From positions 62,001-126,000 of the forward strand of contig JASHOU010000010.1 in assembly GCA_030038475.1 (NCBI GenBank): 64,000 nt of DNA. Direction: 5' to 3'. The position numbers and the translations under genes are program-made. The DNA is from Terriglobales bacterium (GTDB lineage Bacteria; Acidobacteriota; Terriglobia; Terriglobales; Acidobacteriaceae). Positions 51,760-63,859 of the stretch are shown here, in pieces. A model generated the notes under the pieces. That model saw only the letters and a program-made list of their open reading frames with translations, was not told the DNA's origin and did no database searches. Position 1 is the first letter of the stretch; every line of letters begins with the position of its first letter.

Positions 51760-52443
51760 CTAGAGAACGGCTGACATGCTCGTTCCCGCTGCTTCAAACA
51801 CCTCCGCCGCTTCCTGCTCCGCGATCGGTATGAATACTCGCAAGACATCCGGGTCGAACTGCGTTCCGCCGCTGCGAACGAGGCGCGCAATCGCCTCTGG
51901 GTGCGGAAGCCCCTGCCGGTAGCAACGGTTGGAGACCATCGCATCGAAAGCATCGATAACTGAGATAATCCGCGAAACCATGGGAATGTCATTCCCTTTG
52001 AGCCCGGCCGGATAACCGGACCCATCCATGCTTTCGTGGTGGTGCAAAGCGTAGAGACTTGCTTCCTCAAGCCCAGGGAACAATCGCAGAATTGACCAAC
52101 TATACTCCGGATGGCGGTTGATGAGCGCGCGCTCTTCGATCGTCAATGGACCCGATTTTTTCAGAATCGAGTCTGGCACGCCGACCTTGCCAATGTCATG
52201 CAGCAACGCGGCGACTTCCACTTGGTAAAGGCGATTCTCGGGAATCTCTATCTTCCGCGCCACCCGCAACGCCCATTCTGCGAGCCGAGTACTGTGTACG
52301 CCAGTGTTGAGATCTTTCAGGTCGAGCATCTGGTTGAAAGCGCAAACCAGAGAATTGCGAAAGGCCAAATGCTGCTCTTCCAGCTCCTTGACGCGCAGCG
52401 TTAGACCAGGCGCATCCTGAATCAGATTTGAGATCGCCGCCAT
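51760..52443 (-). CDS. HD-GYP domain phosphodiesterase
   Basis: 227 residues: a short N-terminal helix, then the HD-GYP domain. Metal ligands appear in NTGVHSTRLAEWA (His50), ALLHDIGKVGVPD (His82, Asp83) and INRHPEYSW, and HHHESMDGSGYPAGLKG contains the GYP signature (143-145). Domains of this type hydrolyse cyclic di-GMP or cGAMP. No receiver or sensor domain is attached. The gene begins 30 bases after the subtilase stop and is the last gene of the long minus-strand run, so it may be part of that module. Confidence 0.87.
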   Translation of the reverse strand: MAAISNLIQDAPGLTLRVKELEEQHLAFRNSLVCAFNQMLDLKDLNTGVHSTRLAEWALRVARKIEIPENRLYQVEVAALLHDIGKVGVPDSILKKSGPLTIEERALINRHPEYSWSILRLFPGLEEASLYALHHHESMDGSGYPAGLKGNDIPMVSRIISVIDAFDAMVSNRCYRQGLPHPEAIARLVRSGGTQFDPDVLRVFIPIAEQEAAEVFEAAGTSMSAVL

Positions 52444-52473
52444 GTCGTCGCTGCTCGCACTCTCTGTGCTGGA

Positions 52474-53799
52474 TTACAGCGCGAGACGGCAGGTTAGAAG
52501 TGCCTGATAAGTATCCAGACGTCCCCATCCTAGATTCAGATTGTCGATGAAATGCGCATCGGCCAAGCCAGTAGGAATACTCGATACGGAGCAGTTGCTG
52601 TTGTTCCCCAACATGAGCGCCGCAGTGCCAGCTACGAAGGGAGTGCTGAACGAGGTGCCCCATCCGGCGGCCCAGGTTCCCCAGGGGTAAGTTGTGACCA
52701 CCCCTTCTCCCGGCGCAGCCATGAATACTGGAGGCACGCCGTAATTCGTAAACGTGGACTGGACATCGGTATTCGAAGTGGACGCAACGTCGATCACTCC
52801 AGGGAGTCCGCCCGGATAAACCATTATGTCCTCGCTGTCATTTCCAGCCGAGGCGACCGAAATTACCCCCTTACTGTTCGAATACTTGATAGCAGTTGCG
52901 AGCTCCTGCGAGTAACTTGTGTAATTAAAGCTCATGTTCATTACATTGGCACCGTTAGCCACGGCGTAGTAGATGGCGCGCAGAATGTTCGAGTCGTAGG
53001 CAGTGCCGTCCGAAGTGAACGCTTTGAGCGGCATGATACTTGCCTCGGGCGCGACTAGGTGTACGATTCCCGCAGTCATAGTTCCATGTCCGAAGTCTGA
53101 ATACGAGCTGCCATCGAGCACCGCGACCGTGCGCTGATCCAGCACCGCGACCGTCCGCTGGTCCAGGGTTGCAGGCTGGGCATCACTCATGTCGGGAGCG
53201 GCTGGAGCGCCGTTCATTTCTGAACCGCCGCTGGTATTGGTTGTGAAGTCATAGCCGTCGACCAGAACACTTTGCAGCACTGGGTTGTTGGGATCCACGC
53301 CCGTGTCGATAACTGCAACTGTCGCGCCGGCGCCGGCGACGTTAAATGTCGACTGTGTTTGCGCGGTTCGCACTAACTCGTTCGCGGGCTGCACCAGGTA
53401 AGCTTGCCAAACGGTTGCGCCGTAGTAAGACGTCGGGGTCTCATCCGTCAGGTACGACGCATCGGAGTTTGACTCCGGCTGCTGCTGAGACACCACTTGA
53501 TCGATTTCGACATCGACGATGCCAAGATCTTGGCTGATTTCGAGCAGGTCGGTGACCGGATTCAGAATGGCAGGGAAAGTCACCAAAAATAACTGGCCGT
53601 TCGGGTCGCCAAGGCTTTCCACGACGGTGCACCCGGCCAATAGACAGGTCAGGTTCAGACCCGGCAGCCCTAGCGAATCGCGCACAATCACGCGAGTTTG
53701 CGCTTGCATAGCCGGCGCGCAAAAAGCAGTCACCAACAGAAGCAAGCAAGGCATTATGCCCGCACGCCGAATGTTAAAATTAGACTTTAACTCACCCAT
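52474..53799 (-). CDS. Secreted S8 (subtilisin-like) serine protease
   Basis: 441 residues from MGELKSNF at 53799. Signal peptide ends near MQAQ (residue 34). A short prodomain-like region (VIVRDSLGLPGLNLTCLLAGCTVVESLGDPNGQLFLV...VDVEIDQVVS) precedes the catalytic domain. The triad is Asp165 (VAVIDTGVD), His238 (GHGTMTAGIV) and Ser383 (GTSFSTPFVAG), with the oxyanion Asn in SAGND. Just before His238 the octapeptide DQRTVAVL is repeated head to tail. No membrane anchor. Lies between the anti-sigma-like gene and the HD-GYP gene; predicted to act outside the cell or in the periplasm. Confidence 0.9.
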   Translation of the reverse strand: MGELKSNFNIRRAGIMPCLLLLVTAFCAPAMQAQTRVIVRDSLGLPGLNLTCLLAGCTVVESLGDPNGQLFLVTFPAILNPVTDLLEISQDLGIVDVEIDQVVSQQQPESNSDASYLTDETPTSYYGATVWQAYLVQPANELVRTAQTQSTFNVAGAGATVAVIDTGVDPNNPVLQSVLVDGYDFTTNTSGGSEMNGAPAAPDMSDAQPATLDQRTVAVLDQRTVAVLDGSSYSDFGHGTMTAGIVHLVAPEASIMPLKAFTSDGTAYDSNILRAIYYAVANGANVMNMSFNYTSYSQELATAIKYSNSKGVISVASAGNDSEDIMVYPGGLPGVIDVASTSNTDVQSTFTNYGVPPVFMAAPGEGVVTTYPWGTWAAGWGTSFSTPFVAGTAALMLGNNSNCSVSSIPTGLADAHFIDNLNLGWGRLDTYQALLTCRLAL

Positions 53800-53918
53800 T
53801 GCTTTCCCCTTTTGGACCTTGTTCCTGGTCGTCATTTTAGGATTGATTCTTTGCCACTTGCCACTTACAGCTGTACTCTCTCTGGAGTAACTCCCGTGGT
53901 TTCTTTGGTCATTCATTG

Positions 53919-54542
53919 TCAGTTACCTCTATCTTGCAGGGCCAGCGGAATCCGCACTGCATTGCGGTCCTCCGCCTTAACCGACAGCCATAGATCGTCT
54001 TTCGTTTGATACTCAAGTTGAAATTCTCCTGAAACACTGACGGGCGCTGTCGCGACCAGTCGGTGTTGTATTGTCGACAACTCGACGCTGGCCTTGTCCT
54101 GCAGGGCCCGCACTGCTTTTTTGTCGAACACTTGGCCTATGATATGAAGCGCATTCGATTGTGCGCCACGACCTAGCCGTAGATCTACGGTCAGGCCCTC
54201 GGCCTCGTAAACCATCTGCCAGGTATTCAGCGCGCCGCTGCGCACTCCTGCAGGCAGCGGTTGTGCCAAACTGTCAAAAACCAGATTAGCGACGGTCCAG
54301 TCCCTCTGAGGCTGATCTGTACGTGTGTTCTCAAAGGCAAGCTTCACCAGACGCACCAGATTTTCCGGCGGCGCATAGCCCATTTCTTGGACTGCCATTC
54401 TTCCCACCCGGCCCCAGGCGTCGTAAGCTGTCTTGCACTGCAGACAATCAGCAACGAGATGAGCGTTGATACCGTCGCCAACCTTTGGAGCCATTACTCC
54501 ACGAACAAAATCAACCCACGATTGTTCGGAAAAATGCTGCAT
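53919..54542 (-). CDS. Anti-sigma-like zinc-finger protein
   Basis: 207 residues. N-terminus SEQSWVDFVRGVMAPKVGDGINAHLVADCLQC carries an H-x4-C-x2-C zinc-knuckle pattern like the HC2/ZAS region of anti-sigma factors. A helix follows (ENLVRLVKLAFEN), then a C-terminal beta-rich domain (VYEAEGLTVDLRLGRG, LHIIGQVFD, VSVSGEFQLEYQTKDDLWLSVKAED). No membrane segment, so if it is an anti-sigma factor it is cytosolic. It lies after the TPR-CHAT gene in a run that starts with a sigma factor. Role inferred from motif and position. Confidence 0.6.
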   Translation of the reverse strand: MQHFSEQSWVDFVRGVMAPKVGDGINAHLVADCLQCKTAYDAWGRVGRMAVQEMGYAPPENLVRLVKLAFENTRTDQPQRDWTVANLVFDSLAQPLPAGVRSGALNTWQMVYEAEGLTVDLRLGRGAQSNALHIIGQVFDKKAVRALQDKASVELSTIQHRLVATAPVSVSGEFQLEYQTKDDLWLSVKAEDRNAVRIPLALQDRGN

Positions 54543-54663
54543 CTCTGTCCTCTCATTTGGGGGAGGGCATTAGAGCTAGTACGTCGAGCGTATCTTCTAT
54601 AACTATCGCCAGGGATGAACTGGCCCTTACTACAAAAGGGATCGCAGGGGCCAAGAAAATACA

Positions 54664-54690
54664 GGTAACCGGTAGGAAAGTACGGTTACC
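54664..54690. terminator. GGTAACCG / CGGTTACC inverted repeat after the TPR-CHAT gene
   Basis: 8-bp perfect stem, 11-base loop, in the 149-base gap after the CHAT stop. Can form an RNA hairpin; no T run follows on the minus strand, so attenuation or processing is as likely as termination. Confidence 0.4.
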
Positions 54691-54691
54691 G

Positions 54692-57565
54692 TTACTCCTT
54701 TCCGATCAATAAGAAAGGAGCCCAATGGTAGGGATGGGGCCGCCGTTGCCGCAGCCTGATGGAGGCGCTTTGCAGCGCTTCCGCCTTCGGCAGTCCAGTT
54801 TGGAGTTCGCCATAAAAGTCGATCATAAATTCCTTAGTGCTGTCGTCATCGACGTCCCACAAGCTCAAAATCAGCGACTGCGCTCCGGCTTGCAGCAAGC
54901 CGCGGACCAAGCCCATCAATTCGTCACCGGGCGTAACCACGTTCAACCCGGTGGCGCAACCGCTTAGTACCACCAACTCAGCCGGCAGTCGCAGATGAGC
55001 CATGTCATAAAGGCTAAGATAGGAATCTCCCAGACGAATCGAGGAAAACATCGGGTTATCCTGGCGAAAATACCCGTGCGTCGCAATGTGTACGATTTTG
55101 CTGCCTGGCCCGTGGCTTTTCAGAACTGCCGAGGTTGCATCGTCCCCGACAAATAGTCTGCTGTTGGGCAAGATTTTGGATACTGCATCTACCTCCGCAA
55201 GAATAGCGGGTGTTCGCTCATCAGCCACGCCCAGGATTAGCGAATCACGGATTAGCGAATCGCTACTCGTGTTGAGGTGTTTCCTTTGGCAATGACCATA
55301 CACGCTGGCACTCGGCGCGTAGGAGACGGAAAATTGATCAACTAAGTATGAATTCCCATCATATAGAGCGTGAAACGGAACGTAATGCAGCAACCCATGC
55401 TGTACAAACACTATATGCCGTCCGTCGAGCATATCCCGGACAGGCGCGACTAACTCTTGATACAAACTCTGTAGGTGTGCCTGTGTCGATTCGAGTAGGG
55501 ACTGGCTGAAGATTTCCACATATTGGGGATCAAGGCGGAATTTCGACATCTGAAATTGCAGCAACTGCAGCAGCTTTTGAATTCGCGACTGCAGCGTGAC
55601 TGGACAGATGTGAAGTCTATCGCGCGTCAGCACGCAGGCCACGATGCGATCGTGTGTGCAGAAAAACTCGAGCAAAACGGTGTCCGCGGGAAGGACCGAA
55701 CGAATCTCCTCTAATGACATGGCGGAGGGAACCTGCAATCCCGCTTCATTCGCTTCCGCAACACTCGCTTGCTTGACCGCCCGCATCAAGTCCGACTCTC
55801 GCGATCGGGCCTGTCGTTCGAGTTGCTCGACCCTCTCCCGCGATCGCCCTTCCGGCCGCAATTGTTCGCGCTCGATCAGGTTGTAATACCAGTTCAGTTC
55901 CTCGCGGAGGTTGCGGATCGAACGCACGAGTTCGCTTTGTCCGGGATCGGCCGCGCTCGGAACGTGCACCGGGTGGTTTAGAACATCCATCAACGTCCGC
56001 GATTTGGCTTGTTCGATGTAGGTGAACGCCTCTGCGAAGCCGTTCTGACGTCGAAGACAAATGTCTACCAGGCTTTCGTATACTTCGAGTTTGTTTTCGA
56101 AGAAAGCAATCTTGAGTTCTTCTCCGCGCAGGCTGCTGCGCAGGCGCTCGATTGCTGCACGCGCATGGCAGTAAGACTCATAGGCCGCATCTTCATTTCC
56201 AGTGATTCGCTCCACTTCGCCCATCACAAACTCGGCTTGATAGAGAAGCGTCGGCGAATCCAGATTTGCCAGTTCCCTGAGGGCCGCCGCGCAGTGTTGT
56301 TTTGCCAGAGCTGTGTCGCTCAGCCGCAGGGCAATGCGCGCCAGCAATAGTTCGGCTAGAATTGCTTTGCCACGCATCGACGAGGTTCGGAAAAATTGAT
56401 GTGCTGCCGCACCAAGTCGTCGAGCCTCAAATAAGCGTCCTTCCGTGAACAGTACCAGCGCTTGATAAAGATCAATCAGCGAAGGCCAAACCTGGTTCTG
56501 GTCACGAACAAACGTCTTTTTTGCCAAACCAAATAGCTTGACAGCCTCAAACGCCTGCCCTTGACGGCTTGCCGCGATAGCCGAAAACCCCAGTGCTTTC
56601 GCTGCTTCATAACCAAAGCCGAGTTTCTCGAAACTTTCATGCGCTGTCCGACCCAGTTCGTCGGCCTCGCCGTTCAAATTCAGTTCGAGATAGATTTCTG
56701 CCATGTCCAGATTGCAGAGGGCGAGCTGATAAGGGTCGTTCGCTTTCTTGGCGCTCGAAGATGCATCGCGAAGCATTTGAATCGCGCGCCCGTATTCTCC
56801 GCGCAAGAAATATAAGTAGGCAATGTTGTAATCGGCATAAGCGACCAGAATCGGCATGTCCTTCTGCTCGCAGTGCCGTCGCGCGACCTGGTGGAGCTCC
56901 AATGCTTTGGGAAAATCGTTGAGACTGATGTGGCACAGCGATAAATTGCTCAGAACCGCCGCCAACCCTTCCGCATCGTCGTGGGCGAGCATTTGTTGGT
57001 ACGCGCGTTCGTAAAGGGCAAGCGCTTCGGTGAACCGGTCCTGCCGGTGGTAGATGTTTCCAATGTTGATTTCCAGGCGAGCGAGCCGTCGCGCATTGCC
57101 CTGTTTTCGAAAAATCTCGCCGGCGCGCTCGCCCGCGGCCAGTGCCTGATCGTATCTGCCGAGCAACAGCAACGGCTGAATCGATCCGCTCAAAGTCCGC
57201 GCTAGTTCAGCCTTGTCGCCCGTTTGCTCAAATAGAGCGATCGCCTTTTCGTGCAGTTGAACGGCCTCCAAATGTTCATCCAGCGCATACATGGCGTTGG
57301 CTTTTGCCCGAAAGCTTCGGGCAATCAGGCTCGGAGTGCCAAGCGTTTGGGCAACATCCAGCGCCGCGTCCGCCAGTCGCTTCGCCCGATTTGTATCGAT
57401 ACGAACTTCTTGCCAGACTTTTTCGGTGAGCGTTGTTACGATTTCATCCCACGCAATCGTCGAGCATTCCGCGATCAACTGCGCTCGGCTCAAGGCATCG
57501 TCCAGCGCCAGCAGACGCTCAATGGCCGCGTCCGATTCGGTCTTTAAAACCGGCTGGACGCTCAT
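54692..57565 (-). CDS. TPR-CHAT caspase-like protease
   Basis: 957 residues. About residues 40-480 are ten or so TPR-like helix pairs (EHLEAVQLHEKAIALFEQTGDKAELARTLSG, YDQALAAGERAGEIFRKQGN, DRFTEALALYERAYQQMLAHDD). A coiled segment follows around 530-610. The C-terminal CHAT domain (about 640-957) has the catalytic His830 in IVHIATHGYFRQ and Cys870 in ELVVLSGCATGLN, followed by GDELMGLVRGLLQAGAQSLILSLWDVDD and a terminal PYHWAPFLLIG. CHAT proteins are caspase/separase relatives, and the TPR part usually senses a partner. Its start overlaps the sigma factor stop by one base. Cytoplasmic; no signal peptide. Confidence 0.92.
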   Translation of the reverse strand: MSVQPVLKTESDAAIERLLALDDALSRAQLIAECSTIAWDEIVTTLTEKVWQEVRIDTNRAKRLADAALDVAQTLGTPSLIARSFRAKANAMYALDEHLEAVQLHEKAIALFEQTGDKAELARTLSGSIQPLLLLGRYDQALAAGERAGEIFRKQGNARRLARLEINIGNIYHRQDRFTEALALYERAYQQMLAHDDAEGLAAVLSNLSLCHISLNDFPKALELHQVARRHCEQKDMPILVAYADYNIAYLYFLRGEYGRAIQMLRDASSSAKKANDPYQLALCNLDMAEIYLELNLNGEADELGRTAHESFEKLGFGYEAAKALGFSAIAASRQGQAFEAVKLFGLAKKTFVRDQNQVWPSLIDLYQALVLFTEGRLFEARRLGAAAHQFFRTSSMRGKAILAELLLARIALRLSDTALAKQHCAAALRELANLDSPTLLYQAEFVMGEVERITGNEDAAYESYCHARAAIERLRSSLRGEELKIAFFENKLEVYESLVDICLRRQNGFAEAFTYIEQAKSRTLMDVLNHPVHVPSAADPGQSELVRSIRNLREELNWYYNLIEREQLRPEGRSRERVEQLERQARSRESDLMRAVKQASVAEANEAGLQVPSAMSLEEIRSVLPADTVLLEFFCTHDRIVACVLTRDRLHICPVTLQSRIQKLLQLLQFQMSKFRLDPQYVEIFSQSLLESTQAHLQSLYQELVAPVRDMLDGRHIVFVQHGLLHYVPFHALYDGNSYLVDQFSVSYAPSASVYGHCQRKHLNTSSDSLIRDSLILGVADERTPAILAEVDAVSKILPNSRLFVGDDATSAVLKSHGPGSKIVHIATHGYFRQDNPMFSSIRLGDSYLSLYDMAHLRLPAELVVLSGCATGLNVVTPGDELMGLVRGLLQAGAQSLILSLWDVDDDSTKEFMIDFYGELQTGLPKAEALQSASIRLRQRRPHPYHWAPFLLIGKE

Positions 57566-58179
57566 CAGAAGCCTCTCTTTTCCAAGTGCTTCTTGAGATA
57601 GGCCAGGCAGCGTCCGCGAATCGCGCCAATCGATCCCTTCGCCATGCCCAGCTCCTTCGCAACATTCTCGTAGGGTCGCGGAGGAATTTCGAAAAAAAGC
57701 AAATGAACCATCCGCTCACATCTCTCGGGCAGCTCTACAATGGCATCGCGGAGCATCTGCTCTTGTTCGAGTTGCAACAGCATTTGCTCAGGAAGGTCTT
57801 CACTGTGGCTGGCAGGCAGCGCGGCATTGCTCTCGGCAGCTTCTGGTGTAAGCTCAACCAGCCGTTCCCCGTCACGTTGGTGGTGAAGGCATTTGTGATA
57901 GCAGACCTGCATCAGCCATTTTGGCAAAGCGCCGTGTTCGCGAAGTCGCGGCAGTTCCGAAAGCAAATCCACACAAACTGATTGAAAAATGTCCCCCGCA
58001 TCCTGATACATCCCCAGCTTGATTGGAATCGAGTAGATCAGATTCTTGTACTTGTCGATCAGCGCTGACCATGCCTCCTGATCACCCTTAAGGCAACGAG
58101 CGATCAGCTTTTCATCGGAGAGACCGCCCGAAGACTGGACCGGCTTTTCCTTCTGCCGTCCTGTTGCTGTTCCCGTCAT
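57565..58179 (-). CDS. ECF-like sigma-70 family RNA polymerase sigma factor
   Basis: 204 residues. Region 2: ARCLKGDQEAWSALIDKYKNLIYSIPIKLGMYQDAGDIFQSV. Region 4: LPERCERMVHLLFFEIPPRPYENVAKELGMAKGSIGAIRGRCLAYLKKHL. Regions 1 and 3 are absent, as in ECF sigma factors. Its ATG overlaps the stop of the peptide-binding protein gene (ATGA) and its stop overlaps the TPR-CHAT start, so it is translationally coupled on both sides. Likely directs polymerase to a small regulon, perhaps including this run. Confidence 0.9.
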   Translation of the reverse strand: MTGTATGRQKEKPVQSSGGLSDEKLIARCLKGDQEAWSALIDKYKNLIYSIPIKLGMYQDAGDIFQSVCVDLLSELPRLREHGALPKWLMQVCYHKCLHHQRDGERLVELTPEAAESNAALPASHSEDLPEQMLLQLEQEQMLRDAIVELPERCERMVHLLFFEIPPRPYENVAKELGMAKGSIGAIRGRCLAYLKKHLEKRGF

Positions 58180-59951
58180 CGCACTCCTGCGTTCTGCGGA
58201 GCCGAGCTGCGCACATAAAGCTCATCCGCGTTCCATAACGTATAGGGATCGAGCACAGCCGGATGGAAATTGCCGACGCGCACATTCGCGCCAGCCAGAA
58301 TGTTGGGCGTTCCCAAAAAGACGAAAGGAAGATTATCGGAGATAAGTTGCTGCGCGCGATCGTATAACTGCTTTCGCTTGGCATAGTCGAGCGTGACCAT
58401 CTGTTGTTGCATAAGTTGGTCGAGTTCACGCTCCCAAGCTGTCGCGGGCTCGGTTTCGTTGAGATGCCACAAGTGTGAAGTTCCGTTGAAGGTCCACACG
58501 TTCATCTCCGGATTGGGGTCTGCATCCCCGCCACCGAGCCCCATGATTGCGGTGTCATAATCGAAGGTCTGAAATATGCGGTCAATCATCGCGCGAAATT
58601 CGAGCGGAACAACATGCACCTGCATTCCGAGATGCGAGAGATCGTCTTGCACTAGAGTTGCCATCTTCATGCGCTGGCTGTTCGAGGAACTGGTGACAAT
58701 CGAAAACTCCACGGGCCGCCCCGCCGCGTCTACTAACAGCCCCGCGGGATTCCACGAATATCCCGCTGACTTCAGCAACTGTCTTGCAGTTTCCAGCGAA
58801 CGCTGTGGATGCGGCAGATTCTGATCGACCCAGAGTTTGTTCCCCGGACCGACGTTTCCCCACAGCGCCGCGCCGCGTGATCCATACACCAGGCGCACGA
58901 TGGATTCGCGGTCAACCGCTGCTGAGATTGCTTGTCGGAATTTCAGATCGCGAAACCACGTCTGCTTGCGCGCAACTTCGTCGAGTTTTTTGCCGCTCAG
59001 ATCGTTAAGGTTGAACAGCAGGAAGTTGTATTCCAGGCTCGGCCCCATATCCGCCAGCTGCGAATCCATGCGGGATTTCTCGCGCACGAGAAGGTTGTAA
59101 TTTTCTGCGCTGAGCCGGCTGATCATGTCGGTCTCGCCCGCTTCGAATCGCATCACTTGCGCGTCCTCGGTGCCCACGAATAGAAATGCGAGTTCATCAA
59201 GATAAGGCAACCGCCGATTCTCGGCGTCAACCTTCCAATAGTAGGGATTGCGTTCCACCACGATTTGTTGGCCGGGAGTGTATTGTTTGAGTCGAAAAGG
59301 GCCCAAGCCGGCGATCTCGCCCGGGGCGACGTTCAAACCCCATGTCTGCGCGAAATGGCCCTCACGGTACGGCTTCTCCAGCAGATGTCTCGGAAGCATG
59401 GCCAATCCATCAAACAACCTTTCACCCGCGGCATAGGGACGCGGTAAGACGAACCGTACCGTGTATTGGTCGAGTTTTGTAACTTGCATCGGCTTGCCGT
59501 CGATGATGAGCAGATCCCGCTGCGGCGAATCGACCGCCTCATCCATGTAGACCTTGAAAGAGAACAACACGTCGTCCGCGTCGAAGGGATACCCGTCAGA
59601 AAAGCGAATACCCTTGCGGAGTTGCAGGGTAAACGTCTTGCCGTCGGCAGACATTTTCCATGATTTCGCGAGCGCCGGTTCGGTCTGCTGCGTCGATCGG
59701 TTGATGTCGATCAAGTCTGCCATAAGTCGCCCGATCACCTCGCGTGACACCGCATCCGTGGCAGTAACGGGATTAAGCGTCTTGGGTTCAGAACGTTGCC
59801 CAATCGTCAGGTGTCCGCCGTATTGGCCGGAGACATCAGCGTCGCGTGCGAGTTCTTCGCCTGGTTTTGCCGCTTCTGGAGCCGGCGCGGCCGCGAAGCA
59901 GATGCCTGCGAGCAGGCACACGTGTAGGGTTAGGTGAGCGATCAGCTTCAT
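58176..59951 (-). CDS. Peptide ABC transporter substrate-binding protein (SBP family 5)
   Basis: 591 residues. Signal peptide MKLIAHLTLHVCLLAGICFAAAPAPEAAKP. Family core: GQYGGHLTIGQRSEPKTLNPVTATDAVSREVIGRLMADLI, PALAKSWKMSADGKTFTLQLRKGIRFSDGYPFDADDVLFS, GPFRLKQYTPGQQIVVERNPYYWK and FRQAISAAVDRESIVRLVYG. OppA/DppA-like periplasmic receptor for di- or oligopeptides. Lies 28 bases after the OppC-like gene and overlaps the sigma factor gene by four bases. Confidence 0.9.
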   Translation of the reverse strand: MKLIAHLTLHVCLLAGICFAAAPAPEAAKPGEELARDADVSGQYGGHLTIGQRSEPKTLNPVTATDAVSREVIGRLMADLIDINRSTQQTEPALAKSWKMSADGKTFTLQLRKGIRFSDGYPFDADDVLFSFKVYMDEAVDSPQRDLLIIDGKPMQVTKLDQYTVRFVLPRPYAAGERLFDGLAMLPRHLLEKPYREGHFAQTWGLNVAPGEIAGLGPFRLKQYTPGQQIVVERNPYYWKVDAENRRLPYLDELAFLFVGTEDAQVMRFEAGETDMISRLSAENYNLLVREKSRMDSQLADMGPSLEYNFLLFNLNDLSGKKLDEVARKQTWFRDLKFRQAISAAVDRESIVRLVYGSRGAALWGNVGPGNKLWVDQNLPHPQRSLETARQLLKSAGYSWNPAGLLVDAAGRPVEFSIVTSSSNSQRMKMATLVQDDLSHLGMQVHVVPLEFRAMIDRIFQTFDYDTAIMGLGGGDADPNPEMNVWTFNGTSHLWHLNETEPATAWERELDQLMQQQMVTLDYAKRKQLYDRAQQLISDNLPFVFLGTPNILAGANVRVGNFHPAVLDPYTLWNADELYVRSSAPQNAGVR

Positions 59952-59979
59952 AAGACACCCCGTACCCCACAGAACTTTG

Positions 59980-61008
59980 TTAGGTTAATGAAGATTCTAA
60001 CCGGGAATGAAATACATCAGCGAGGGAACTATAGAGTACCGAAGTAACAACAAGAGCGCCGGCTGGGGCCAGCAGCCATGCATAAGAAACCAGGATGCTG
60101 TATTGCTGCAGAGCGCCAAGCATGTTACCCCAGCTGGGTATGGGCTCAGTAACTCCGAGCCCGAAGAACGAGAGCATGACCTCCGCAGCAATATAACGCG
60201 GAACGAGCAGCGCCGCCTGGGTCAGCAGCAAGCCGAAAGTTTCCGGCAATATGTGCCGTCGCAGCACATAGAAGTCGGATGCGCCAAAGCCACGCGCCGC
60301 CAGAACGTAGTTGCGGCTTCGTAAACTGAGCACTAATCCTCGAATCAACCTGGCCGGTCGGGCCCAGCCAATCATGCCAATGACGCCGGTCAATAAGAAA
60401 AAAGTTTCGATTGCACTCAGATGCAATGGCAAGAACGCCCGCAAGCCAAGCAGGAAGTAAAGCCACGGCAACGACAAGAACAGCTCTGTCACGCCCATCA
60501 GCGACTCGTCAACCCAGCGCCCGTAGTATCCCGCAATAACTCCGAGAATGCATCCCAATAAAAGCGCGATCAACGTTGCCGTGATTCCGGCTGCGACCGA
60601 AATCTGGCCGCCATACAAAACGCGAGAGAATTCATCGCGTCCGTAACCGTCAGTACCCCAAAGAAAAATTCTCCCCGGCTCGTCGACGCCAAACAGATGT
60701 AGCGACGTTTCGTAAATGCCCACTAGTTTGTAACTTGAACCGCGTACAAAAAAATGCAGGGGATATTCAACGCTACGAGTCTCACTGTAAGCGCCAGGTT
60801 GATTACTGCTCGTGTTAGCCGTCCAGGCATACACAAACGGACGAAGATGAAACCCTGAGGCGTTTATAAAATGCAGTCGCGTCGGCGGAGCGTATGGCTG
60901 GTCACGGTTTTGGCTGGCAGCATCGTAGGGCGCGAAAAATCCGGCAAACAACAAGACAAGATGCAGTCCTACGATCACCGCAACCAACGCCAACGTCTTA
61001 GTCCGCAT
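59980..61008 (-). CDS. Peptide ABC transporter permease, DppC/OppC type
   Basis: 342 residues from ATG at 61008 (GAAGG upstream). An N-terminal helix (LALVAVIVGLHLVLLFAGFF) precedes a periplasmic insert of about 90 residues. The transport domain has GTDGYGRDEFSRVLYGGQISVAAGITATLIALLLGCILGVIAGYY and the EAA loop AARGFGASDFYVLRRHILPE. The ATG lies within the end of the OppB-like gene (11-base overlap). Partner of the next permease. Confidence 0.9.
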   Translation of the reverse strand: MRTKTLALVAVIVGLHLVLLFAGFFAPYDAASQNRDQPYAPPTRLHFINASGFHLRPFVYAWTANTSSNQPGAYSETRSVEYPLHFFVRGSSYKLVGIYETSLHLFGVDEPGRIFLWGTDGYGRDEFSRVLYGGQISVAAGITATLIALLLGCILGVIAGYYGRWVDESLMGVTELFLSLPWLYFLLGLRAFLPLHLSAIETFFLLTGVIGMIGWARPARLIRGLVLSLRSRNYVLAARGFGASDFYVLRRHILPETFGLLLTQAALLVPRYIAAEVMLSFFGLGVTEPIPSWGNMLGALQQYSILVSYAWLLAPAGALVVTSVLYSSLADVFHSRLESSLT

Positions 61009-61975
61009 TCGTACCTTCTCTGCGAATGCGCGGGTCAAATGCGAGCAGCATTACGTCGGCAACGAGATTCCCGCCTACCATGAATAACGCCGAGAACATA
61101 ATTCCGCCGATCACTAGATATAGGTCGCGCGATAGTGTAGCTTCTAGAATCAGCGGCCCTAATCCAGGCCAACCGCATACAACCTCAACCAATAGCGATC
61201 CACTGAGCAGGCCAGCCAGAGAAAATCCTAGTAGCGAAATAGCGGGATTAGCCGCCGCGGACAACGCATGACGAAACAAAAGCCTAGCTCGGCGGATTCC
61301 AAATCCGCGCGCGGCATGCACATAGGGAGCGTCTAATGCCTCAACCATACTGGCGCGAATGTGCCTGACAATCACGGCGCTTTCACAAACGGCAAGAATA
61401 AGCACCGGCAACGCCAGATGCCGCGTGAGGTCCTGCAATTTCGTCCACTCGGAAAGTCCGTCGAAGTCGGTCGACGTCATTCCGCCTATAGGAGCCAATC
61501 GCCAACGAACTGCGACCGCCAATACCGCCACGGCAATCACCAACTCCGGAACAGATATGACAAATGAACTCGCCAGAGTAACCGTCTTATCTAACAAACC
61601 TTCTCGCCAATTTGCAGTCCACACGCCCAACGGAACGGAAATAAACCAGGTGAGAAGCAGTGCCGTGGTTGTCAGCAACAGAGTGTTTTGCGTCCGTTTC
61701 CACAGCAACGGTGCGACCGGCATGTTGTAGGCTATCGAATACCCAAAATCCGCATGCAGCGCCGATTTCATCCACCGCCCATATCTCACTGCGAGCGGCT
61801 GGTCCAATCCGTAATGCGCGCGCAGCGCCGAAATCGTTTCCGGAGAAATCTGCGGATTCAACCGCATTTCGTCAAAAAAACTGCCCGGCGCCATTTCTGT
61901 AAACAGAAAACAAAGCGCCGATACTCCGGCCAGCAACAGGATCGCTCGCAGCAGTCTTTGGCCGACGTAAATCAC
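60998..61975 (-). CDS. Peptide ABC transporter permease, DppB/OppB type
   Basis: 325 residues: first helix RLLRAILLLAGVSALCFLFTEMAPGSFF, LRAHYGLDQPLAVRYGRWMKSALHADFGYS (the conserved OppB periplasmic loop), and the EAA loop AARGFGIRRARLLFRHALS. Ends REGTNAD. The start overlaps the upstream ATPase gene by four bases. Confidence 0.91.
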   Translation of the reverse strand: MIYVGQRLLRAILLLAGVSALCFLFTEMAPGSFFDEMRLNPQISPETISALRAHYGLDQPLAVRYGRWMKSALHADFGYSIAYNMPVAPLLWKRTQNTLLLTTTALLLTWFISVPLGVWTANWREGLLDKTVTLASSFVISVPELVIAVAVLAVAVRWRLAPIGGMTSTDFDGLSEWTKLQDLTRHLALPVLILAVCESAVIVRHIRASMVEALDAPYVHAARGFGIRRARLLFRHALSAAANPAISLLGFSLAGLLSGSLLVEVVCGWPGLGPLILEATLSRDLYLVIGGIMFSALFMVGGNLVADVMLLAFDPRIRREGTNAD

Positions 61976-62874
61976 CCTTGTGCTCCCACAGCAGCCGCGA
62001 ATTTCGCTGTAGCTAGCTTTGCCGAAACCAGCTGTTTCTTTGTTGCCGCCTCGCTCGGGTTTAAAATGATTTGTTGGGTCGGGCCAATTTCCACGATCCG
62101 CCCTCCGGACATAACTGCGATTACATCCGCTAAATGCACTACTAGTGCTAGATCGTGAGAAATCAGGAGATAAGTCAGTTGATGCGCTTCTTGCAAATCG
62201 AGTAATAAGTTGGCGATTTGGGCCTGAGTCGACAAATCCAATCCACTGAATGCCTCATCCAGCACCAGTAACTGAGGGCGCAAGACAAGTGCACGCGCCA
62301 GCGCCAGCCGCTGGCGTTGCCCCCCGCTGAAGTGAAGGATCGATCGATCCATCCAATCCGGAGAAAGACCGACTTCGGCCATCAAAGTGCGGACCAGATC
62401 GCGACGATCTTCTCGTGTGTAGCCAACTTGGCCGCTTTGGCGACCTATAATCGTCGGTTCGCTAATGATCAAGGGTTCTTCGATGACTTCCCGCGCCGAG
62501 AATCGCGGGTTCATCGAGGTCACAGGGTCCTGAAAAACCATTTGGATGCGCGAGCGAAAAGGAGCCAGTTCGCTGGGATGAAGCTGTGCGATGTCGGTCC
62601 CTCCGATCAGGATTTGGCCAGAGTCCGGTCGTTCGAGTCGCGCCACGCATCGTGCCACGGTGCTCTTTCCCGATCCAGACGCCCCGACCAATGCTAGAGT
62701 CTTCCCATGCTGAATCTCGAAATCAACATCGCGGACAGCGGTAATCGACCTGTCCTTCTGCCAGAGACTACCCCGCGCATATTTCTTACAAAGGCCGCTT
62801 GCGCACAAAAAGCGACCAATGGGCTCTGGTTCATTGCCACGGTTAGCTGGAGAGTTAGTCGACATGCTCCCCAT
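61972..62874 (-). CDS. Peptide ABC transporter ATP-binding protein, DppF/OppF type
   Basis: 300 residues. Walker A GASGSGKSTVARCVARLE, signature FSGGQRQRLALARAL, Walker B LLVLDEAFSGLD, and SHDLALVVHLADVIAVM. Shorter C-terminus than OppD. The start overlaps the stop of the preceding ATPase gene. Confidence 0.92.
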   Translation of the reverse strand: MGSMSTNSPANRGNEPEPIGRFLCASGLCKKYARGSLWQKDRSITAVRDVDFEIQHGKTLALVGASGSGKSTVARCVARLERPDSGQILIGGTDIAQLHPSELAPFRSRIQMVFQDPVTSMNPRFSAREVIEEPLIISEPTIIGRQSGQVGYTREDRRDLVRTLMAEVGLSPDWMDRSILHFSGGQRQRLALARALVLRPQLLVLDEAFSGLDLSTQAQIANLLLDLQEAHQLTYLLISHDLALVVHLADVIAVMSGGRIVEIGPTQQIILNPSEAATKKQLVSAKLATAKFAAAVGAQG

Positions 62875-63859
62875 ACTTGAAACAATTCACGTTTGCCAAC
62901 GGCGCTGGCATGAACTCTGGGGGATAACGTCGCGAACAAACGTCCATCCTTTCGCAGCAACGCGGCTCAAACCTGCAGCCAACCGGAAGGCTCGTGGGAT
63001 TCGGAGTTTCGCCATCGATCACCGGGAGTCGCGCGCTCTTTGCCGCTCCGGTAACCACTGAGGACGTCGCTATCCGGACCAGCGCTTGAGTATAAGGATG
63101 CAGCGGCCGGCCGAAGATCACGTCGGTGCTGGCGACTTCGACGATGCGGCCTGCATACATAACGGCCATACGATCCGCAAATCCGGCAAAGAACACTGGA
63201 TCGTGGCTGATCGCCAGAATCGCTGTACCGTGTTGCCGCCGAATCTGCGACAACAGCGTTACAATCTCCGCCTGCAGGGACACGTCGAGTTCGCTGGTTG
63301 CTTCATCGGCGATTAATAGAGCGGGCCTGCACGCTACGGCCTGCGCAATGGCAATCCGCTGGCGCTGGCCTCCACTGAGTTGATGAGGATAAGTGGAGTA
63401 AATTTCTTGTGGCTCATTGAACCCAACCTCACGAAGTAAATCTAGGACCCCTTGTCGGCGTTGCTGAGTATTGAGTGGCAGATGAGACCGCAGCACTTCA
63501 CTGACTTGTGAGCCGGCGGTCATTACCGGATTGAGTGCAAGAGCCGGATCCTGCGGAATCAGCGATATCTCTTGGCCGCGGATCGCACGCAAATCTCTTT
63601 CGGGCAAACTCAACAAATCGCGGCCGCGAAACAGGATGCTCCCATCCTCACATTTTGCCTGCGGTGGCAGCATCTTTAACAACGCGCTTGCCAGCGTGCT
63701 TTTGCCGCAACCAGATTCTCCAAGTATTCCGACTACTTCTCCCGAGCAAATGTCTAGGCTGACTCCATCGAGGGCGCGTACTGGATCGCCGTTCGCAGGG
63801 AAATATGTAACCTTTAGCTCGTGGACCTGAAGTAAGTATTTGTTGGAGTTATCCACCAT
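62855..63859 (-). CDS. Peptide ABC transporter ATP-binding protein, DppD/OppD type
   Basis: 334 residues from ATG at 63859 (a TTG at 63871 is less likely). Walker A GESGCGKSTLASALLKML, signature LSGGQRQRIAIAQAV, Walker B LLIADEATSELD. The C-terminal oligo_HPY region (GRPLHPYTQALVRIA...LPVGCRFEPRCCERMDVC) has the Cys cluster that ligates a 4Fe-4S centre in some relatives. First gene of the twelve-kilobase minus-strand run. Confidence 0.92.
   Translation of the reverse strand: MVDNSNKYLLQVHELKVTYFPANGDPVRALDGVSLDICSGEVVGILGESGCGKSTLASALLKMLPPQAKCEDGSILFRGRDLLSLPERDLRAIRGQEISLIPQDPALALNPVMTAGSQVSEVLRSHLPLNTQQRRQGVLDLLREVGFNEPQEIYSTYPHQLSGGQRQRIAIAQAVACRPALLIADEATSELDVSLQAEIVTLLSQIRRQHGTAILAISHDPVFFAGFADRMAVMYAGRIVEVASTDVIFGRPLHPYTQALVRIATSSVVTGAAKSARLPVIDGETPNPTSLPVGCRFEPRCCERMDVCSRRYPPEFMPAPLANVNCFKYGEHVD

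Follow-up and report, generated by a model that had tools for sequence, protein, structure and literature searches.

A candidate CHAT-controlled sigma switch joined to a peptide-type importer in the Acidobacteriota

The group ECF54 of extracytoplasmic function (ECF) sigma factors is found in loci with carboxypeptidase, subtilase and CHAT genes, and its control by proteolysis without an anti-sigma factor has been proposed (PMC8999054, citing Huang 2015 and Casas-Pastor 2021). In the Craspase system, the CHAT protease Csx29 cuts Csx30, an inhibitor of the ECF sigma factor CASP-sigma (PMC10028731). Peptide signalling of the RRNPP type, such as that by Rap/Phr, proceeds with import by Opp (PMC10569065). 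Here we describe a block of ten genes (positions 51760-63859) that recalls all of these, within a stretch of 64,000 nucleotides (nt) from a Terriglobales bacterium (GCA_030038475.1, contig JASHOU010000010.1, positions 62,001-126,000; hereafter the window). We consider it about evenly balanced that the block encodes an ECF54-like sigma switch under the control of a CHAT protease, with a peptide importer coupled to it. In many soil Acidobacteria the importer is genetically linked to the sigma and protease genes.

The genes all lie on the minus strand and run from 63859 down to 51760 in the order OppD-OppF-OppB-OppC-solute-binding protein (SBP)-sigma-TPR/CHAT-ORF207-S8-HD-GYP, where TPR denotes tetratricopeptide repeats and ORF207 an open reading frame of 207 codons bearing a putative zinc-binding anti-sigma (ZAS) domain. 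Domains were called with Pfam and NCBIfam, and starts were checked against upstream stop codons and homologues, giving the following features.

62855-63859, minus strand: OppD-like ATPase with an oligo_HPY C-terminus (PF00005, 1.7e-30; PF08352, 4.4e-15; ATG start at 63859)
61972-62874, minus strand: OppF-like ATPase (PF00005, 7e-33; ATG start at 62865 or 62874)
60998-61975, minus strand: OppB-like permease (PF00528, 1.6e-32; GTG start at 61975)
59980-61008, minus strand: OppC-like permease (PF00528, 1.4e-24; ATG at 61008, giving an 11-nt overlap as in homologues)
58176-59951, minus strand: solute-binding protein of family 5, SBP_bac_5 (PF00496, 3.7e-80; nearest structure AppA, 1xoc, 2.5e-34)
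57565-58179, minus strand: ECF-type sigma factor (TIGR02937, 2.9e-20; family alignment)
54692-57565, minus strand: TPR-CHAT caspase-like protease (PF12770, 7.8e-64; alignment with Csx29; structure model m5224d12ffd65)
54634-54665, minus strand: promoter-like motif CCTGTATTTTC-N14-CCCTTTT before ORF207, a candidate target of the sigma factor
53919-54542, minus strand: ORF207, ZAS plus Ig-like/CarboxypepD_reg, a probable anti-sigma factor (profile, motif and fold)
53840-53895, minus strand: second conserved element, 5' of S8 (TTAC-N4-GTAA and, about 22 nt further along, a TAGACT-like box)
52474-53799, minus strand: secreted S8 subtilase (PF00082, 2.1e-32; probable start at 53799)
51760-52443, minus strand: stand-alone HD-GYP phosphodiesterase (PF13487, 4.1e-43; nearest structure 5z7c, 4.1e-35)

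The likeness to ECF54 rests on gene neighbourhood, the NCBIfam class of the sigma factor being sigma70-ECF only: in both, a sigma gene has CarboxypepD-like, subtilase and CHAT neighbours, and this four-gene core was also recovered here in Actinomycetota loci. ECF54 is described as free of an anti-sigma factor, and the review mentions no importer or HD-GYP gene; in the present block, by contrast, profile and motif point to a ZAS domain in the CarboxypepD protein, and the sigma gene is overlapped by the SBP gene of an Opp importer. With Craspase, the locus shares a TPR-CHAT protein encoded alongside an ECF sigma factor and an inhibitor (here a probable one), as well as the fold and the catalytic His and Cys of the protease. 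It differs in that Pfam and NCBIfam found no Cas7-11 or CRISPR component among the ten block genes, in that the presumed input is an importer rather than a target RNA, and in the ZAS/Ig-like make-up of the inhibitor, which is not described for Csx30. In DdvA of Myxococcus xanthus (PDB 8rot, 8rw5, 8rlz), too, one sigma factor is served by a ZAS domain together with a TPR protein that is CHAT-like; the N-terminus of DdvA resembles ORF207 and its body the CHAT protein. DdvA, however, is a single membrane polypeptide comprising ZAS, membrane segment and TPR-CHAT, while here two soluble proteins are encoded by separate genes. RRNPP systems also combine an Opp importer with a TPR protein, but no cognate peptide gene is seen here, and in place of a helix-turn-helix regulator or phosphatase there is a CHAT protease that would act on a sigma system. 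The importer set is complete and consists of the same two permeases, two ATPases and family 5 SBP as the Opp/Dpp/App importers; here it is joined by overlaps to the sigma-CHAT pair. The sigma-CarboxypepD-CHAT-S8 core context is thus already known from ECF54 loci, and with Craspase and DdvA also close, the statement in the original prediction that no such system had been described was too strong. A search of open papers, which did not take in the defining ECF papers, found no description of the added importer and HD-GYP genes, of the promoter motif or of the carboxypeptidase-like protein as an anti-sigma factor; the importer coupling and the identity of the inhibitor appear not to have been described before.

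Successive overlaps and short gaps connect OppD through CHAT, as had been predicted, including the ATGA shared by the SBP and sigma genes in a 4-nt overlap; the sigma and CHAT genes overlap by 1 nt in the window. Seven complete blocks keep these junctions (SBP/sigma overlaps of 4 nt except for one of 0 nt; sigma/CHAT overlaps of 1 or 4 nt), and in the block of the window the sigma-CHAT pair is not set apart from the importer genes. S8 and HD-GYP do follow on the same strand as predicted, but ORF207, between CHAT and S8, had been overlooked. The S8 protein has a signal-peptide-like N-terminus and, by inspection, an Asp/His/Ser triad. The HD-GYP protein retains the HD and HHExxDGxGYP motifs, and its nearest solved structure is 3'3'-cyclic GMP-AMP-specific phosphodiesterase 3. 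An Rfam search of the block gaps revealed no known RNA element. In the second conserved element, TTAC-N4-GTAA forms an inverted repeat with the TAGACT-like box downstream, and the whole resembles an activator site followed by a -10 box.

To trace the block, 61 related genomes were searched for homologues of the sigma factor, whose neighbourhoods were then read; scanning about 85,000 species genomes with a CHAT profile yielded 80 named loci; and, as an even sample, 396 Acidobacteriota genomes were searched with the sigma profile alone, which found the family in 47, with 40 neighbourhoods read. Four further genomes of the genus, and two other genera of the family, have the full block, with different flanking genes. 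All ten genes stand together in 13 loci in total, all in Acidobacteriota, which bears out the proposal of a conserved unit made up of importer, sigma factor, CHAT protein and secreted subtilase. Of the rows in the CHAT tree with a linked importer, 43 belong to a single 53-row Acidobacteriota clade (support of 96 in the SH-like approximate likelihood-ratio test, SH-aLRT), in which 48 rows could be evaluated and 5 of these lack the importer; in this clade the importer therefore usually adjoins the module, and the conservation of neighbourhood for which the original prediction had called is seen. Neither of the conditions that the prediction had named as refuting it, a sigma-CHAT pair apart from the importer genes or an importer that is never adjacent, thus holds. 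As genomes of 4-6 Mb carry about four SBP5 genes, chance linkage within 7.5 kb is estimated from these counts at about 1%, against the 43 of 48 evaluable rows observed in the CHAT clade. The linkage also outlasts rearrangement. In L044 the SBP gene lies 3' of HD-GYP and the permeases are divergent, in L177 and L199 the importer is divergent from sigma-CHAT, and in L176 ORF207-S8 has been relocated upstream of OppD; L187 and L210 are further cases and, with L199, are importer-linked rows of a second Acidobacteriota clade, in which the gene order is sigma-ORF207-CHAT-S8. In L047 and L079, OppD/OppF genes near sigma-CHAT follow a mutase-like gene among housekeeping genes and were judged incidental, and an apparent CHAT-ORF207 fusion in L177 was rejected, its reading frame crossing a scaffold gap of N.

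The even sample places the importer in perspective: within 7.5 kb of the sigma gene, ORF207 was found in 34 of the 40 loci, CHAT in 34, S8 in 32 and the three together in 30; the importer was present in 13 of them and HD-GYP in one. In Chloroflexota and Actinomycetota, loci of the order sigma-ORF207-CHAT-S8 have no importer, and Planctomycetota loci without one were also seen. This distribution indicates that the sigma-ORF207-CHAT-S8 core (Acidobacteriota, Chloroflexota, Actinomycetota and others) is older and that Opp and HD-GYP were added later; the core accordingly works without the importer, which changes the original prediction. HD-GYP linkage is confined to part of the family, so that cyclic-dinucleotide turnover, predicted as part of the response, is at most a local output. 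Variations on the module include a response-regulator gene between CHAT and ORF207 (L045, 7780-9246) and tandem copies of CHAT-ORF207-S8 on one contig (L074). In five Chloroflexota CHAT loci (L109, L112, L114, L115 and L123), the gene before ORF207 encodes a divergent sigma-like protein (235-289 amino acids) that is out of reach of the sigma profile.

The 149-nt gap 3' of CHAT holds a conserved promoter-like motif. Across gene orders and phyla, a two-box motif, TATATTTTT-N14-CCCTTAT, is found 5' of ORF207, with CCTATATTTTT-N14-CCCTTAT as its recurrent form. Of 37 loci, 23 have the exact dyad TATTT-N16-CCCT, whereas in shuffled sequences even the best dyad reached no more than 5. A matrix trained on sigma-CHAT-ORF207 loci and applied to the other gene order scored strong hits before ORF207 in 18 of 51 cases, Chloroflexota included (1.4% in shuffles). 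Before the other genes it scored 0 of 38, 2 of 52 and 1 of 34, with sigma, CHAT and S8 hardly ever preceded by it. All eight matches with at most one mismatch in seven scanned genomes precede ORF207; in the window's genome, at most two mismatches yield two matches only, each before a copy of ORF207. Loci L041 and L042, which are sigma-ORF207 pairs lacking CHAT and Opp, have the motif before ORF207 as well. Since the sigma factor and ORF207 are the sole genes common to all loci with the motif, it is most simply read as the promoter of the sigma factor itself, with a regulon largely confined to the module. The confinement of the motif to ORF207 copies in the window's genome suggests that ORF207-S8-HD-GYP is probably a second, sigma-controlled unit; the single transcript originally envisaged would hold, probably, from OppD to CHAT and not for S8 and HD-GYP. 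The L042 pair lies in the window's genome (contig C129, 8879-10387) with no CHAT, S8 or importer gene nearby and adjoins hybrid-kinase and response-regulator genes; L041, in another genome of that genus, is arranged alike.

These two units bear on the possibility, which we hold at less than even, that the importer is passive: CHAT would sense some other signal, from stress or the envelope, and importer and secreted protease would share a regulator simply because both serve nutrition. Subtilase and Opp make a sensible feeding pair, the wide occurrence of the core without the importer means that CHAT needs a non-peptide input elsewhere, and L176 has its Opp genes downstream of ORF207-S8 and the motif, as expected of a passive target. 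Such a target is nevertheless expected behind the motif, alongside S8, and in most loci the importer is instead upstream of the sigma gene and overlaps it, in a unit without a sigma-type motif.

What the importer carries can be approached through its binding protein. The nearest solved structure of the SBP is the oligopeptide-binding AppA, a lead that supports peptide import; an alpha-galactoside-binding protein is also among the near structures, and NCBIfam scores are similar for oligopeptide and nickel families, all below the cut-off. These latter matches favour the reading that the ligand is not a peptide but a metal chelate, sugar, opine or cell-wall fragment and is itself the signal. We regard this as unlikely in view of AppA as the nearest structure, the oligo_HPY domain in OppD and the pairing with a secreted protease, which suggests peptides. 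The SBP is better conserved than the ATPases of the block (63% versus 48%); this was not used as a sign of a fixed ligand because a comparable trend was seen for a control Opp system of the same genomes.

In the TPR-CHAT protein, His830 and Cys870 are invariant in the family alignment and both align with Csx29. The structure model comprises a long TPR superhelix and the CHAT domain, with full-length fold matches led by Csx29 (the best, 3.8e-15), separase and DdvA; the TPR region gives a weak match to RapJ (1.1e-6). ORF207 has the zinc ligands His28, Cys33 and Cys36, and the motif His-x3/4-Cys-x2-Cys is present in 55 of 71 family members, with no membrane segment save in one outgroup member. 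A 53-member profile compared with the PDB retrieved the anti-sigma domains of RsiW (1e-3), RslA (3hug; 1e-3), DdvA (4e-3) and ChrR (6e-3). Pfam recognises zf-HC2 in 7 members and, in 18, CarboxypepD_reg, a regulatory-like, non-catalytic beta domain. The AlphaFold model has four N-terminal helices and a beta sandwich (predicted local distance difference test, pLDDT, 89); whole-protein comparisons with Foldseek and VIA gave matches limited to the common beta sandwich, which are uninformative on the ZAS part. Each match is weak alone, but because four separate anti-sigma structures align at the same residues and linkage to the sigma gene is near-constant, ORF207 is likely an anti-sigma factor; by analogy with Csx30, it is a probable substrate of CHAT. 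Three Actinomycetota homologues (L235, L236 and L237; 154-179 amino acids) appear to retain the C-terminal region only and to lack the anti-sigma part through loss.

The shortened homologues may be the reason why ECF54 was called anti-sigma-free, and they agree with the published account (PMC8999054), in which the sigma factor is controlled directly by proteolysis and ORF207 would be a carboxypeptidase-like accessory. For the window's clade this seems improbable: the zinc ligands of ORF207 are intact, solved ZAS domains are matched, and ORF207 is near the sigma gene in 34 of 40 loci. A non-catalytic CarboxypepD_reg domain also argues against an accessory carboxypeptidase. It is less probable still that the block is a defence module deploying CHAT and subtilase against invaders in the manner of type III-E CRISPR, since despite the fold match to Csx29 and that of a PADLOC subtilase model to S8, the PADLOC matches are generic, all ten genes are assigned with no cas gene among them, the subtilase has an export signal, and no role in defence is known for the importer or for HD-GYP.

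Returning to the CHAT-controlled switch with a coupled importer, the Opp-SBP-sigma-CHAT unit would serve sensing and the ORF207-S8-HD-GYP unit the response. Judging from fold and linkage, the N-terminal ZAS domain is the part of ORF207 that would hold the sigma factor. A ligand delivered by Opp, probably a peptide, may be recognised by the TPR superhelix and render CHAT active, and the active protease would then cut ORF207 and free the sigma factor, in analogy to Csx29, Csx30 and CASP-sigma. The freed sigma factor would transcribe from the two-box motif before ORF207, providing new anti-sigma factor as negative feedback together with the secreted subtilase and, in the window's clade, HD-GYP. 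Products of the secreted protease are plausible substrates of the importer, which could close a peptide-scavenging loop. The more specific form of this proposal, peptide sensing in diderm bacteria in which Opp-imported peptides bind the TPR superhelix and CHAT cuts a zinc-finger anti-sigma factor and turns on a secreted protease, we hold only tentatively.

Several observations weigh against the proposal. The core without importer in other phyla implies that peptide input is not general, and family 5 SBPs also bind nickel, sugars and other ligands. A cognate secreted peptide gene was sought in the gaps of seven blocks, with no conserved small reading frame found; without such a gene in the block, a dedicated pheromone is a less likely signal than one of general scavenging. 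A shared motif was looked for upstream of OppD, and none stood clearly above shuffles, while S8 has a promoter-like element of its own (53840-53895) that is unlike the ORF207 motif. The apparent lack of the anti-sigma part in several Actinomycetota homologues also counts here, as do the L041 and L042 pairs, in which, with no CHAT nearby, ORF207 must be under some other control.

More generally, the findings suggest that Craspase-style control, in which a TPR-CHAT protein is combined with a sigma factor and its inhibitor, is a special case of a far wider bacterial switch. For a sigma group described as free of anti-sigma factors, ORF207 and its motif supply a candidate inhibitor and a candidate promoter; one branch also gains a concrete candidate input, the peptide importer to which its switch is genetically joined. 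If the reading in which peptides act through TPR-CHAT is true, the system would be a counterpart of RRNPP signalling that uses proteolysis in place of direct DNA binding.

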